From Bacteroidota bacterium (GTDB taxonomy: Bacteria > Bacteroidota > Bacteroidia > B-17B0 > Aurantibacillaceae): a stretch of DNA of 64,000 nt. The notes beneath the pieces were generated by a model, which was given only the letters and a program-made list of their open reading frames with translations, was not told the origin of the DNA and ran no database searches. The translations under genes and the position numbers were made by a program. The stretch is from positions 1-64,000 of the forward strand of contig JAAFIQ010000014.1 of the NCBI GenBank assembly GCA_013298715.1, given 5' to 3'. Positions 44,498 through 51,065 of the stretch are shown in pieces (position 1 is the stretch's first letter; every line of letters begins with the position of its first letter).

Positions 44498-44619
44498 GGT
44501 ATTTTTAATTTCAAATAATACGTAAAATCTTGCACTTAATAAACAAGTCCCTTCGTCTTATAGAACACTCCATTTTTATCTTTTTAATCAGTGCACCTTT
44601 GATTAAAATTTTAATAAAA

Positions 44620-47600
44620 ATGAAAAAGTTAAATGGTATTTGTGTTTTGCTAATTAGTGTTATAACATTTTTTGTTATTCAAGCATGTTCTCAATTTCGT
44701 CCAAAAGTTAAAGATATCAATCCAGCTTTTGGGCAATACATTTCTGGCTATACATCAGGCATGGTTAGCCGAAAAACCACAATCAGAATAGAATTAACTA
44801 ACAGTTTTACTTTTGCAAGTACTAAAAAAAATGGTGTTGCACAAACTACATTAGCAATAAATGCAATCTTACCAGATTCCAATTTGGTAAAAGATATTTT
44901 TTCGTTTAGCCCTTCAATTAAAGGAAGAACAATTTGGGTAAGTGATAGGGTTATAGAATTTATTCCTGATAATCCATTAGCCATTAATCAGTTTTATCAA
45001 GCTGAGTTTAAACTTGATGAACTTTTAGATGTGAGCAGCGAATTTGAAACGTTTCATTTTCAATTCTCCACTTTCCCTCAAAATTTATTTGTTACAACAG
45101 ATGGTTTAAGGGCTTACGATGAATACAATATTGAGTGGCAAAAAATTTCTGGAAAAATTACTACATCCGATTATGAAGACACCGCAGCAATAAGAAAAAC
45201 TATTACCGCTAAACAAGATGGAAAACTATTGCCTATAGATTTAGCTTTTAGTTATACAGCCAACGAATACTATTTTCAAATTGATAGTATTGAGCGTAGA
45301 ACCAGAGCAGGTAAAGTGACCGTTTCGTGGGATGGCGCGTTAATTAATGCACAGCAGAAAGGAAGTAAAGAAATAATAGTACCTGGTTTAGGCGATTTCT
45401 CTGTAACAGAGGCTAAAGTAATCGATAACGAAGACCAACATATAGAAATAACACTTAGCGATCCGATTTATTACAATCAAAATTTAAAAGGAATTATAGC
45501 ACTTGCTGGTATTGATAATTTAACCTATGCTATAGAGGCCAATATTGTAAAAGTATTTTTACCAAACCGAATTGTAGGTGTAAAAGAACTTAATGTAAAC
45601 ACCGGAATTAAAAATTTTAAAGGTTATAAAATGAATAACGCATTTATTACTGTACTTGAGTTTCAAGAGCCTCGCCCATTGGTGCGTATTAAAGGTAACG
45701 GTTGTATTCTGCCAAATTCAAATGGTTTAATTTTTCCTTTTGAAGCAATTAGTTTAAAAGCTGTAGATGTTCGCATTGTTAAAATTTATGAAAACAATGT
45801 TCACCAATTTTTGCAAGTAAACGATTTGAACGGAGAGTCGGGTTTGGCGCGAGTTGGAAAAGTAATTACAGAAAAGAAAATTGATTTAAACACAGATAAA
45901 AGAATAAATTTAAAACAATGGAATACACATGTAATAGATTTAGGAAAATTAATAACCCCCGACCCAGGTTCAATTTATAGAGTAAGTATTAAGTACAATA
46001 AATCGTATGCACTATGTGATTGTGACACAACAGAAAATACTTCTAGTAACGAAACTGGTTTGTTAAGTAGTTTGCGAGATTCTTGGAACGAAGACGATTG
46101 GCACAGCTATAGTTTTGAAAACGGATATGATACCTGGGATTATTCTGATAATTACGAACCATGCAATGAAAATTATTATTATGGGAAAGCGGTTAGCAGA
46201 AATATTTTAGCGTCAGATATTGGTTTAATTTACAAATTGGATGATAATAAAACCGCACATGCATTTGCAACAAATATGGTTACAGCAAAACCATTAGCAG
46301 GAACAGTGATTGAATATTACGACTACACAAAACAACTAATTGGTTCTGGGACTTGCGATGCAAGCGGTATGTTAGCCGTGCAGCTAAAGCGGAAACCGTT
46401 TTTAATGCTTGCAAAATATGGCAAACAGCGTGGCTATTTAAAATTACAAGATGGCGAGGCAAACTCGTTAAGCAAATTTGATGTTGATGGAGAGGTTGTA
46501 CAAAAAGGCATTAAAGGTTTTATATATGGCGAACGGGGCGTTTGGCGTCCAGGTGATTCTTTATACCTTAATTTTATTTTGGAAGATAAAGAAAATGGTT
46601 TACCACAAAATCACCCTGTAAAATTTGAATTACAAGATCCTAACGGACAAATAATTTATCAAACTACAAAAACTAATCACGTAAATAGAACATACAGTTT
46701 TAGAATTTCTACTTCTACCGAAGCTATTACAGGAAATTACAACGCAACAGTAAAAGTTGGTAACCGAACTTTTTCTGAAAACATTAAAATAGAAACAATA
46801 AAACCTAATCGCTTAAAAATAAATTTAAATTTTGGTGATAATGTATTAGCTGACACTACCGCCAAACTGCAGGTAAAATGGCTGCATGGCGCAATAGCAA
46901 AAAATTTACACGCCTTAGTTAACGTTTCTGTTAATCAAACTAAAACAACTTTCGTAAGTTATTCTGACTATGTATTTGATTCACCACTTAGAAATTATTA
47001 TTCTGATGCTGATTATGTGTTTGATGGAAATTTAAATGATAAAGGTGAGGCAACTATCAAAACGTCTTTATCAAAAAAAATTGCAGCACCAGGTATGTTA
47101 AGAGCAACATACATTACAAAAGTATTTGAAGAGGGCGGAGATTTTAGTATTGATAGATTTACCACAAAATACTCTCCTTATAACACTTATGTTGGTTTGC
47201 ATGTACCAAAAAATAAAGGTTATGATGAAGCGCTTGAAACCGGTGTAAATTACAAATTTGATGTAGCAACAGTAAATCGATTAGGAAAACCCGCACAAGC
47301 AAAAAAATTGCAGATAAAAATTTATAAAATGGAATGGCGTTGGTGGTACGAAAAGGGAAGTGAAGAGCTTTCAAGCTATATTTCTCGTTCAAGCACCATC
47401 GTATTAAAAGACACGCTTTTAAAATCAATTGATGGTAAAGCAACTTTCAATTTTAAAGTAAATTATCCTGAGTATGGTCGTTATTTAATTACGGCAACAG
47501 ATTTGGAAGGTGGTCACCAAACAGGACAAGTTATTTATATAGACTGGCCATACTGGAATCGTGCCAATAGAAGTGAAAATGAAAACGCATCAATGCTTAA

Positions 47601-50235
47601 TTTTTCATGCGATAAAGAAAAATACAGTACTGGTGAAAACGTAAAACTTTCCTTCCCTTCTCCATCAGAAGGATTGGCGCTAGTAAGCATAGAATCTGTT
47701 ACCAAAGTGATTAAGAAATTTTGGATTCCTACCAAGAAAGGAGAAACTACCTATCAATTCCCAGTTACAGCAGATATGACTCCCAATGCCTATGTGCATG
47801 TTACCTTAATGCAACCCCATGCCAATACAAAAAACGATTTACCTATTCGCATGTATGGTTTAGTGCCTATAAGCGTTGATAATCCTGCAACTCATTTATT
47901 CCCTGAAATAAAAATGAATGATGTGATAAAACCAGAAAGTATAACGCATATAAAAATAAAAGAAAAAACAGGTAAAAAAATGACTTATACTGTTGCAATG
48001 GTTGATGAAGGGTTATTAGACTTAACACGCTATAAAACACCGCAACCACACACTACATTTTATGCCAAAGAAGCATTAGGCGTAAAAACGTGGGACATGT
48101 TTAATTCGGTTATTGGAGCGTTTGCAGGCAAACTAGATAAATTAATAAGCATTGGCGGAGATGGTGATGGTGCTGGCGGGAAAGGGATTAAAGCAAATAG
48201 ATTTAATCCAATGGTTAAATTTATGGGACCTTTTGTTTTAGAAGCTGGTTCAGAAAATGAACATAAAATCGAAATTCCAAATTATGTGGGTTCGGTAAGA
48301 GTAATGGTAGTTGCAAATTACAACGGCGCGTATGGTAGTTCTGAAAAAGCTGTTGCTGTTAGAAAACCTTTAATGGTGCTTGCTACACTACCTCGCGTGT
48401 TGGGACCAAAAGAAACCGTGAGCCTACCTGTAACTATTTTCGCAATGGAAAAACACGTGAAAGATGTAAAAGTAAATATTGAAGTAAATAATTTATTGTT
48501 GCCAGAAGGTGCTATTGAGCAAACTATTCATTTTAGTGAAGTTGGCGATGAGGTTATAAACTTTAAATTAAATGTTGCCGAAAAAACTGGCATAGCAAAA
48601 GTAAAGGTTACTGCAATTAGCGGAAAAGAAAAAGCAACACAAGAAATAGAATTAGATGTAAGGACTGCAAACCCAAAAGTTGTAGAAGGTTTTGAAACAG
48701 TTGTTGAATCAGGCAATACATGGGATGCGGCTGTTGCTTTGAAAGGGGTTTATGGAACAAACAAAGTAACATTAGAGCTTTCAAGTATACCAGCATTGGG
48801 ATTAGAAAAACGATTGGATTATTTAATTCAATACCCACATGGTTGTATTGAACAAACAATATCATCAATTTTTCCGCAACTATTTGTAATTAATTTAATG
48901 GAGTTAAACGCAGAGCAAAAGAAAAAAATTAATGCGCATGTTAAAGCAGGATTAAAACGTTTACAGTTGTTTCAAACAGCTAATGGTGGCTTTTCTTATT
49001 GGCCAGGTGAAGCTTACGAAAGTGATTGGGGCAGTAACTATGCAGGACATTTTATGATTGAGGCAGAAAAAGCGGGTTTTAGTTTGCCTGTGAATATGAA
49101 AAGCAAATGGATTAATTACCAACAAAGTCAAGCAAAAAATTGGTCAATGTCTAACACAACTTATTCTCATCCTCATGGTTCTGAGTCTAATCAACTCATT
49201 CAAGCATATAGGCTGTATGTGTTGGCGCTTAGTGGTAATGCAGAATTGGGAGCAATGAACAGATTGCGTGAAGAAAAAAATGTAGCCCTAGCCGCCAAAT
49301 GGCGATTAGCAGCAGCTTATGAACTAATTGGTCAGCACGAGGTAGCCTTGCAATTAATAAAAGGCTTACCTATTAAAGTTAATCCTTATAAAGAATTAAC
49401 ATGTGCTTATGGTTCTGAAAGAAGGGATGCCGCAATGATTTTGGAAACATTGAGTTTATTAAATGAAAATTTTAAAGCAAATGAAATTGCAAAAGAAGTA
49501 ACCTTGAACTTAAATTCTGATAAATGGATGAGTACACAAGAAACTGCTTACTCCTTATTGGCTATGTGTGTGTATGCAGGTGTGAAGAATACCACTACGG
49601 AGTTAAATTTTTCTTATTCATTAAATGGCGGTGCTGAAACAAACAAAAGTGCGAATAGTAGAATTAGTCAAGTTAAATTTTCTGATGCGGAAATAAATAA
49701 AACGGCTACAATCAAGTTTAAAAACACTGGGAAATCGAAATTATATGCAAAACTACTTGTTGAGGGTGTTCCGTTAATAGATGATAAATCAAGTAGCGCA
49801 AATAATTTAAAAATGGAGGTCGTTTACAAGAATATGAAAGGCCAAGTAATACAACCAGATAAAATTATTCAAGGCACCGATTTTATGGCAGTAGTAACTA
49901 TTTCAAACCTAGGCACAAAAGGTAATTTACATGAAATGGCCTTGAATCAAATTTTTCCGAGTGGTTGGGAGATTCATAACAGTAGAATGGATGATAACGG
50001 TACAGCGAGCATGGCAAGGTATGAGGATATAAGGGATGATAGAGTTTTCAGTTATTATGAATTAAGTAAAAATACCAGCAAAACATTTGTTGTAAAATTA
50101 AATGCAACATACTTAGGAAAATTTTATTTACCAACAGTATACAGCGAAGCCATGTATGATAATTTAATTAATGCTAAAGTGCCAGGCAGATGGGTAGAGG
50201 TGGTGAAGGAGGATGTAACCGTTGCAAAGAAGTAG
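44620..50235 (+). CDS. Alpha-2-macroglobulin family lipoprotein
   Basis: This is a giant periplasmic protease trap (about 1870 aa). I choose the ATG at 44620 (MKKLNGICVLLISV...) because it gives a lipoprotein signal ending VIQACSQF; the upstream ORF extension is not signal-like. Several MG-type beta-sandwich domains and the bait region come first. A complement-like thioester domain follows, with YPHGCIEQTISSIFPQL supplying the CxEQ thioester, then a TED alpha-toroid (QTANGGFSYWPGE). Bacterial A2M often accompanies PBP1C, and pbpC lies 5 kb downstream. It likely guards the envelope against exogenous proteases. Confidence 0.93.
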   Translation: MKKLNGICVLLISVITFFVIQACSQFRPKVKDINPAFGQYISGYTSGMVSRKTTIRIELTNSFTFASTKKNGVAQTTLAINAILPDSNLVKDIFSFSPSIKGRTIWVSDRVIEFIPDNPLAINQFYQAEFKLDELLDVSSEFETFHFQFSTFPQNLFVTTDGLRAYDEYNIEWQKISGKITTSDYEDTAAIRKTITAKQDGKLLPIDLAFSYTANEYYFQIDSIERRTRAGKVTVSWDGALINAQQKGSKEIIVPGLGDFSVTEAKVIDNEDQHIEITLSDPIYYNQNLKGIIALAGIDNLTYAIEANIVKVFLPNRIVGVKELNVNTGIKNFKGYKMNNAFITVLEFQEPRPLVRIKGNGCILPNSNGLIFPFEAISLKAVDVRIVKIYENNVHQFLQVNDLNGESGLARVGKVITEKKIDLNTDKRINLKQWNTHVIDLGKLITPDPGSIYRVSIKYNKSYALCDCDTTENTSSNETGLLSSLRDSWNEDDWHSYSFENGYDTWDYSDNYEPCNENYYYGKAVSRNILASDIGLIYKLDDNKTAHAFATNMVTAKPLAGTVIEYYDYTKQLIGSGTCDASGMLAVQLKRKPFLMLAKYGKQRGYLKLQDGEANSLSKFDVDGEVVQKGIKGFIYGERGVWRPGDSLYLNFILEDKENGLPQNHPVKFELQDPNGQIIYQTTKTNHVNRTYSFRISTSTEAITGNYNATVKVGNRTFSENIKIETIKPNRLKINLNFGDNVLADTTAKLQVKWLHGAIAKNLHALVNVSVNQTKTTFVSYSDYVFDSPLRNYYSDADYVFDGNLNDKGEATIKTSLSKKIAAPGMLRATYITKVFEEGGDFSIDRFTTKYSPYNTYVGLHVPKNKGYDEALETGVNYKFDVATVNRLGKPAQAKKLQIKIYKMEWRWWYEKGSEELSSYISRSSTIVLKDTLLKSIDGKATFNFKVNYPEYGRYLITATDLEGGHQTGQVIYIDWPYWNRANRSENENASMLNFSCDKEKYSTGENVKLSFPSPSEGLALVSIESVTKVIKKFWIPTKKGETTYQFPVTADMTPNAYVHVTLMQPHANTKNDLPIRMYGLVPISVDNPATHLFPEIKMNDVIKPESITHIKIKEKTGKKMTYTVAMVDEGLLDLTRYKTPQPHTTFYAKEALGVKTWDMFNSVIGAFAGKLDKLISIGGDGDGAGGKGIKANRFNPMVKFMGPFVLEAGSENEHKIEIPNYVGSVRVMVVANYNGAYGSSEKAVAVRKPLMVLATLPRVLGPKETVSLPVTIFAMEKHVKDVKVNIEVNNLLLPEGAIEQTIHFSEVGDEVINFKLNVAEKTGIAKVKVTAISGKEKATQEIELDVRTANPKVVEGFETVVESGNTWDAAVALKGVYGTNKVTLELSSIPALGLEKRLDYLIQYPHGCIEQTISSIFPQLFVINLMELNAEQKKKINAHVKAGLKRLQLFQTANGGFSYWPGEAYESDWGSNYAGHFMIEAEKAGFSLPVNMKSKWINYQQSQAKNWSMSNTTYSHPHGSESNQLIQAYRLYVLALSGNAELGAMNRLREEKNVALAAKWRLAAAYELIGQHEVALQLIKGLPIKVNPYKELTCAYGSERRDAAMILETLSLLNENFKANEIAKEVTLNLNSDKWMSTQETAYSLLAMCVYAGVKNTTTELNFSYSLNGGAETNKSANSRISQVKFSDAEINKTATIKFKNTGKSKLYAKLLVEGVPLIDDKSSSANNLKMEVVYKNMKGQVIQPDKIIQGTDFMAVVTISNLGTKGNLHEMALNQIFPSGWEIHNSRMDDNGTASMARYEDIRDDRVFSYYELSKNTSKTFVVKLNATYLGKFYLPTVYSEAMYDNLINAKVPGRWVEVVKEDVTVAKK

Positions 50236-50251
50236 TTAAAAAGAATTTTGG

Positions 50252-50261
50252 AAAGGAGGTG
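50252..50261 (+). promoter_or_regulatory. Perfect Shine-Dalgarno (AAAGGAGGTG)
   Basis: GAAAGGAGGTG complements at least ten bases of the conserved 3' end of 16S rRNA and lies 8 nt before the ATG of a 48-codon ORF. Strong Shine-Dalgarno sites are very rare in Bacteroidota; I saw no other start-proximal one in this window. Confidence 0.75.
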
Positions 50262-50269
50262 TATAATTT

Positions 50270-50416
50270 ATGAGTAAAGTAAATCAAAATAGTAGAGGAG
50301 ATAATAGTCAACGTTCTATTGTAAAGAATCCCAATAATAATGACTATAAACTGAACAACGATAAGAGATCAGTTCAATTAAATAACACTAAAGCAACTTC
50401 AAAAAAAGGAAAGTAG
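50270..50416 (+). CDS. 48-aa Asn-rich basic micro-protein
   Basis: This ORF is missed by the ORF track. It begins MSKVNQNSRGDNSQRS, contains KNPNNNDYK, and ends TSKKGK before TAG. It is strongly hydrophilic with about 20% Asn and many Lys/Arg, no Cys and no membrane helix, so it is likely disordered. It starts 8 nt after an unusually perfect Shine-Dalgarno, 34 bp after the alpha-2-macroglobulin stop, and ends 46 bp before the CHAP gene. The function is unknown. High-level translation is the main inference. Confidence 0.65.
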   Translation: MSKVNQNSRGDNSQRSIVKNPNNNDYKLNNDKRSVQLNNTKATSKKGK

Positions 50417-50449: not shown

Positions 50450-50467
50450 TGCATTTAGTTCAATGCA
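50450..50467 (+). promoter_or_regulatory. Small hairpin covering the CHAP gene start
   Basis: TGCATT (50450-50455) and AATGCA (50462-50467) form a 6-bp stem with a 6-nt loop. The first ATG of the CHAP ORF (50463) lies inside the stem and the alternative ATG (50469) just after it, so the structure could affect start choice. Confidence 0.3.
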
Positions 50468-51065
50468 AATGAAAAAAAGAATAAAAATAGTTGTTATACT
50501 AGTAAGCCTTGTGGCGCTTTCTTATGGCGTTTTTAAATTTGTTACCAACATCAATCCAAACCCAAAACATTTTGTTGGTGAAAAATTAGATAGCTTGCAT
50601 GGTGTTTATGTTTTTTACAATGGTGGTATTGGAAATGTTGAAGGACGTAACCTTGCTGCAGATGGCTACAATTTAGGTTTGAGGTATCAATGTGTGGAAT
50701 TTGTTAAACGTTATTACTACCAACATTTCAACCATAAAATGCCTGACACTTATGGTAATGCAAAAGATTTTTTCGATACCAATGTTTTAGATGGAAAGCT
50801 AAACACGAAGCGTGATTTAATTCAGTTTACAAATCCTAGTATAACACAACCACAAATAGGCGATTTGCTTATCATGGCTGGAAATGGAGGAAATCCATAC
50901 GGACACGTAGCAATTATTTCTGAAGTTAATTCTAGTTCTATAGAAATAATTCAACAAAACCCAGGCCCATATGCCGATTCAAGAGCTACGTTTTCGTTAA
51001 GTAAAAATAACATTACTTTTTTGATTGAAAGCGATAGAATATTGGGATGGCTTAGAATGAAGTAG
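50463..51065 (+). CDS. CHAP-domain amidase/peptidase
   Basis: An N-terminal membrane anchor or signal (IKIVVILVSLVALSYGVFKFV) is followed by a CHAP domain. Catalytic Cys lies in RYQCVEFVKRYY and His in YGHVAIISEV, with GDLLIMAG between them and a supporting IIQQNPG. CHAP enzymes cleave peptidoglycan cross-peptides or related amides. The start could be 50463 or, six bases on, 50469 (MKKRIKIV). It lies downstream of the A2M gene and micro-ORF and converges on the LytTR gene. Confidence 0.85.
   Translation: MQMKKRIKIVVILVSLVALSYGVFKFVTNINPNPKHFVGEKLDSLHGVYVFYNGGIGNVEGRNLAADGYNLGLRYQCVEFVKRYYYQHFNHKMPDTYGNAKDFFDTNVLDGKLNTKRDLIQFTNPSITQPQIGDLLIMAGNGGNPYGHVAIISEVNSSSIEIIQQNPGPYADSRATFSLSKNNITFLIESDRILGWLRMK

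Follow-up and report, generated by a model that had tools for sequence, protein, structure and literature searches.

The question raised by this locus is why a very small open reading frame (ORF) in a member of the Bacteroidota should be preceded by a Shine-Dalgarno (SD) sequence of exceptional strength. The original prediction, which drew attention to the site, had stated that Bacteroidota ribosomes sequester their anti-SD and that the known exceptions are regulatory, and the literature on Bacteroidia supports both points, the strong SDs being regulatory at rpsU (PMC9976891). The ribosomes of F. johnsoniae hold their 16S tail by means of bS21, bS18 and bS6, and strong-SD reporters respond to bS21 loss (PMC9976891). 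In Flavobacteriales and other Bacteroidota, rpsU, the gene for bS21, has an extended SD through which ribosomes that lack bS21 bring about autoregulation of this protein (PMC9976891). The published survey takes exceptionally strong SDs to be distinctive of rpsU among Bacteroidia and argues that, within Flavobacteriales, SD-dependent control does not extend beyond this gene (PMC9976891). Mutation of Y54 in bS21 raises strong-SD translation in F. johnsoniae. Here, we ask whether a non-ribosomal gene found in a 64,000-nucleotide stretch of DNA (the window) might be under control of the same kind.

A micro-protein gene behind a macroglobulin gene

The features of the locus are listed in Table 1. 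A strong SD upstream of a 48-aa ORF had been predicted, and it is indeed there, forming 12 consecutive pairs with the 16S tail of congeners; its site was correctly placed, except that it starts at 50251, one base earlier than claimed. The leader reads, in order, TTTTG, GAAAGGAGGTGT, ATAATTT, ATG and AGT, and the SD GAAAGGAGGTG (50251 to 50261) is separated by 8 bases from the ATG at 50270. No SD-sequestering RNA structure was found by structure prediction at the leader.

Table 1. Features of the micro-protein locus (window coordinates)
Feature	Position	Strand	Basis or remark
Bacterial alpha-2-macroglobulin-like protein	44530..50235	+	Pfam; start codon uncertain
34-base spacer holding the SD	50236..50269	+	Without stable predicted structure over the SD
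Extended Shine-Dalgarno GAAAGGAGGTGT	50251..50262	+	12-base complement of congeners' 16S 3' tail AACACCUCCUUUCU
48-aa micro-protein gene, VKNPNN family, MSKVNQNSRGDNSQRSIVKNPNNNDYKLNNDKRSVQLNNTKATSKKGK	50270..50416	+	ORF, profile, 20-member family alignment
CHAP-domain protein, next gene downstream	50463..51065	+	Pfam

The macroglobulin gene (Pfam domains MG2, bMG3, bMG5, bMG6, A2M_BRD, A2M, TED and bMG10) is the probable upstream cistron of the micro-protein. Co-transcription of the two is suggested by their spacing, with 34 bases from stop codon to ATG, and by the position of a terminator-like hairpin, which the ORF precedes in congener G006 and which several congeners have after the macroglobulin gene. 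A scan of the plus strand for sigma-70-type promoters returned none, which says little since Bacteroidota promoters are of another type. The description of the surroundings as an envelope-stress cluster is a loose one: the neighbours are the alpha-2-macroglobulin gene, the CHAP-domain gene and, beyond the latter on the other strand, a gene for a LytTR response regulator (Pfam), and the CHAP gene, which occupies the same place in most congeners, is absent there in G006.

Pairing with the 16S tail

The 16S gene of this organism was not found in its assembly, and the anti-SD tail was thus taken from congeners G001 and G030, in both of which it reads GGAACACCTCCTTTCT. Pairing of the SD with this tail was estimated by RNA duplex folding at -22.1 kcal/mol over 12 consecutive bases. 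Of the window's ORFs, 41 are 150 aa or longer, and the best value among these is -5.1 kcal/mol (the rest are weaker), and no other ATG of the 1033 scored on the plus strand reaches -18 kcal/mol. By chance, under a first-order Markov model, 4e-4 such sites before an ATG would be expected per 64 kb and 0.03 per 4 Mb.

Searched as AAAGGAGGTG-N4-11-ATG, the pattern occurs once in the 4.0-Mb genome, at the micro-protein ORF, against two occurrences of a reversed control pattern, and about 48 times across 40 congeners against about 54 for the control. The looser AAGGAGG-N4-12-ATG gave 45 occurrences, compared with 60 for its control. Such sites are therefore in general a matter of chance, and the micro-protein SD stands apart from them because a conserved peptide lies behind it and because G006 has the same SD at its orthologous locus. 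AAAGGAGGTG SDs also precede genes for serine recombinases in G012, G017 and G061 (L102, L106 and L108), which may lie on a mobile element that brings its own SD.

Conservation at the macroglobulin locus

The original prediction called for a search of related genomes for SD and peptide and would have been refuted by lack of the ORF among relatives; both are kept in G006, where the gene is syntenic, 32 bases past the stop codon of the orthologous macroglobulin gene. This ortholog, together with the family described below, bears out the view that the micro-protein is genuine. Over their 48 residues, the two peptides align without gaps at 48% identity, synonymous codons differ at 10 of the 23 residues that they have in common, and the SD block AAAGGAGGTGTA is identical. 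In both genomes, the SD is continued by GGTGT, which fits the AACACC of the genus tail, and the G006 pairing is estimated at -22.2 kcal/mol.

How unexpected this identity is can be gauged from the 4-fold degenerate sites of the macroglobulin genes, which are 42% identical between the window genome and G006, that is, near saturation. The probability of 12 identical bases without selection would be about 3e-5, a rough figure given that the alignment was chosen around the block, that the two SD-to-ATG spacers differ by two bases and that a plain global alignment of the leaders puts the SD blocks out of register.

The combination of SD and peptide is limited to these two loci. In nine other congeners, the orthologous macroglobulin gene is present and no such ORF follows it. 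In a tree of macroglobulin C-termini, G006 pairs with one of the nine, G018, and G000 lies elsewhere, so that gain or loss of the gene must come easily. It may be ancestral and often lost, or may have been gained repeatedly at this locus, perhaps via recombination between congeners; under either history, the sequences suggest that the copies separated early enough to diverge widely, with the SD kept.

A peptide family found in bacteria and archaea

We defined the family as proteins of 40-60 aa with a Q-R-[SA]-x-VKNPNN core followed by D-N-[RK]-[SA]-x-Q. In full, the core reads Q-R-[SA]-x-VKNPNN and then DN[RK][SA]xQxNPN (abbreviated VKNPNN...DNRSNQLNPN), which looks like two related half-motifs, and in an alignment of 20 members V18, N20, P21, N22, N23 and Q36 are invariant. 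The window protein belongs to it (QRSIVKNPNN...DKRSVQ), its second motif being partly degenerate (DKRSVQLNN).

A profile search matched congeners G006, G007, G017 and G034 as well as other families of the class. At E 0.01, the first profile matched 7 of 395 class genomes (two weak matches included); the window protein, itself among the six sequences that make up the profile, matched with an E of 3e-19. A match in G014 was dropped because it reads an ATP synthase gene out of frame, and other weak matches from the single-sequence search were set aside. With a broader profile, 3 of 396 phylum genomes were matched, and the family is rare in the Bacteroidota sampled.

A single-sequence search of bacterial and archaeal genome contigs returned no match, but an alignment search did, with 17 loci in Methanoculleus, Methanoregula, a Thermoplasmata archaeon, Acinetobacter, Mycoplasma leonicaptivi, Archangium, Paraliomyxa (Myxococcota), a Chloroflexi metagenome-assembled genome (MAG) and a Chitinophagales MAG, among others; MAG records may contain foreign contigs, and isolates are represented too. 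Archaeal and unrelated bacterial members retain Q-R-[SA]-x-VKNPNN. The family is also carried by 24 Acinetobacter plasmids, where it is mostly annotated as hypothetical protein. Two such plasmid proteins (RefSeq WP_004969301.1 and WP_277095676.1) belong to the same family as the window micro-protein but are unlinked to a macroglobulin gene, in hosts that use SDs generally. The family is absent from phage records, and two IMG/VR contigs carry it, the one that was read (L188) encoding an Acinetobacter-type peptide. None of the 20 members matched a profile in Pfam, NCBIfam or PHROGs (E 0.1), PDB sequences gave no match to the family, and literature searches on its motif returned nothing about it. 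As judged from sequence, the gene is real and unannotated, and its family is absent from the protein-family libraries searched.

No neighbour is conserved family-wide among the genome-contig loci, except for a downstream gene common to Acinetobacter. At three loci of that genus (L167, L173 and L178), the micro-protein gene faces a convergent uncharacterised gene at most a few hundred bases downstream (MNLLSFYSLILKNMDKNLAKK... in L167, with a clear relative in L173 and a looser one in L178). The members in G007 (L161 near 4078) and G017 (L162 near 6946), which are without SD, lie near a common uncharacterised protein (MRITTKNYFKAVSEVGFENLPE...), with a serine recombinase gene also nearby in G017, a setting that suggests a mobile element.

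The peptide had been described as small, basic and disordered. Basic it is, but it is not merely disordered: it is a member of a cross-domain family, and AlphaFold2 predicts, at moderate confidence (mean pLDDT 65.8), that its residues 24-41 form a helix. The product would be a short basic, partly helical peptide.

SDs elsewhere in the genus and the family

That the phylum hardly uses SDs is true in general, but a few genes of this genus do use them, and those of rplE and rplF are conserved across it (an AAGGAGG-type SD in 25 of 29 rplE loci read and an SD in 22 of 23 rplF loci read, counted from listings). This is an already published pattern, ordinary SDs at rpsR, rplE, rplF, rplI and other genes having been reported in certain Bacteroidia (PMC9976891). 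The SD of rplE overlaps the 3' end of rplX (stop and start codons overlapping as TAATG), and coding constraint may thus contribute to its conservation. Like the micro-protein SD, those of rplE, rplF and rplI (the last in the window's own genome) sit at operon junctions, but SDs of this class are weaker, with 7-8 pairs and -12.2 to -13.5 kcal/mol for these three genes in the own genome compared with 12 pairs and -22.1 kcal/mol.

No extended SD precedes rpsU in the 30 congeners examined, where the best values are near -6.5 kcal/mol, and the known autoregulatory loop is therefore absent; bS21 of the genus retains Y54. Within the family, members in SD-using hosts have SDs, such as AGGAGGTG in Methanoculleus L168, and other Bacteroidota members have none. 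The extended SD is thus a feature of the macroglobulin-linked locus rather than of the family.

How might the SD work?

Taking at least nine consecutive pairs and an energy below -13 kcal/mol as the mark of an rpsU-class extended SD, the micro-protein SD, with its 12 pairs, belongs to that class. It has in common with the rpsU SD the length of pairing (9-13 consecutive pairs in rpsU), a similar estimated energy and a class of organisms that otherwise avoids SDs. The values at the two loci lie at the strong end of the range reported for rpsU (-14 to -21 kcal/mol; PMC9976891), a rough comparison since a different program was used there. The differences are that the gene is not ribosomal (the peptide is unrelated to bS21, and rpsU lies elsewhere, on C42, without SD), that it is probably a 3' cistron rather than separately transcribed, that rpsU of this genus is itself without extended SD and that nothing in the arrangement points to autoregulation.

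The original prediction proposed that the SD may mark SD-dependent control, ribosome state sensing or very high expression. The explanation that we favour, and consider probable, is that the SD is functional and selectively maintained and would drive initiation on the 3' cistron of the macroglobulin mRNA. A long SD-anti-SD helix could pull the normally sequestered 16S tail from its pocket, or the SD could catch subunits whose tail is already free, either right after finishing the macroglobulin cistron or for lack of bS21; in each case, 30S subunits would be recruited to the micro-protein start codon. That the SD is a chance string ahead of a meaningless ORF is scarcely credible in view of a peptide family conserved across domains, a syntenic ortholog and an identical SD, even if the genus shows no excess of such strings upstream of its ATGs. 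Nor is it likely that the gene was horizontally acquired from an SD-using organism, with a leftover SD of little effect in its present host. The scattered distribution in archaea and bacteria, the Acinetobacter plasmids, the recombinase neighbour in G017, the SDs of members in SD-using hosts and the difference in gene presence between G006 and G018 would all suit such an origin, but the SD block has stayed identical while protein identity fell to 48%, its fit to the genus 16S tail extends through GGTGT in both copies, and the remaining Bacteroidota members, of which some lie in mobile contexts, are without SD.

Functional maintenance, the reading that we prefer, could take two specific forms. 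The SD may serve plain reinitiation after termination on the macroglobulin cistron, giving a fixed product ratio without any sensing, which is possible if not likely: the spacers of 34 and 32 bases and the operon-junction SDs of rplE, rplF and rplI speak for it, but the latter are far weaker and 12-13 pairs are not needed for coupling. By analogy with rpsU in F. johnsoniae, the micro-protein might instead be a target of bS21-lacking (or anti-SD-exposing) ribosomes, made when these accumulate. We regard this as appealing but somewhat unlikely; pairing strength in the rpsU class, retention of Y54 in the bS21 of the genus and the response of F. johnsoniae reporters to bS21 loss (PMC9976891) are in its favour, but rpsU is without such an SD in 30 congeners and nothing indicates variation in bS21. 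In a wider version, which we hold to be unlikely, specialised ribosomes would have the micro-protein as a non-ribosomal output, and exposure of the anti-SD would translate the state of the 30S platform into peptide synthesis.

What is new here is the association of a gene from an undescribed family with an rpsU-class SD, which in the sequences compared rests on two loci and makes the micro-protein gene a candidate for the second gene, after rpsU, to be controlled by such an SD. Whether the extended SD is a general switch could be tested on such a second gene, unrelated to rpsU. The family also deserves description in its own right, since it is found in archaea, Acinetobacter plasmids, a mycoplasma and Bacteroidota and the libraries searched contain no model for it.
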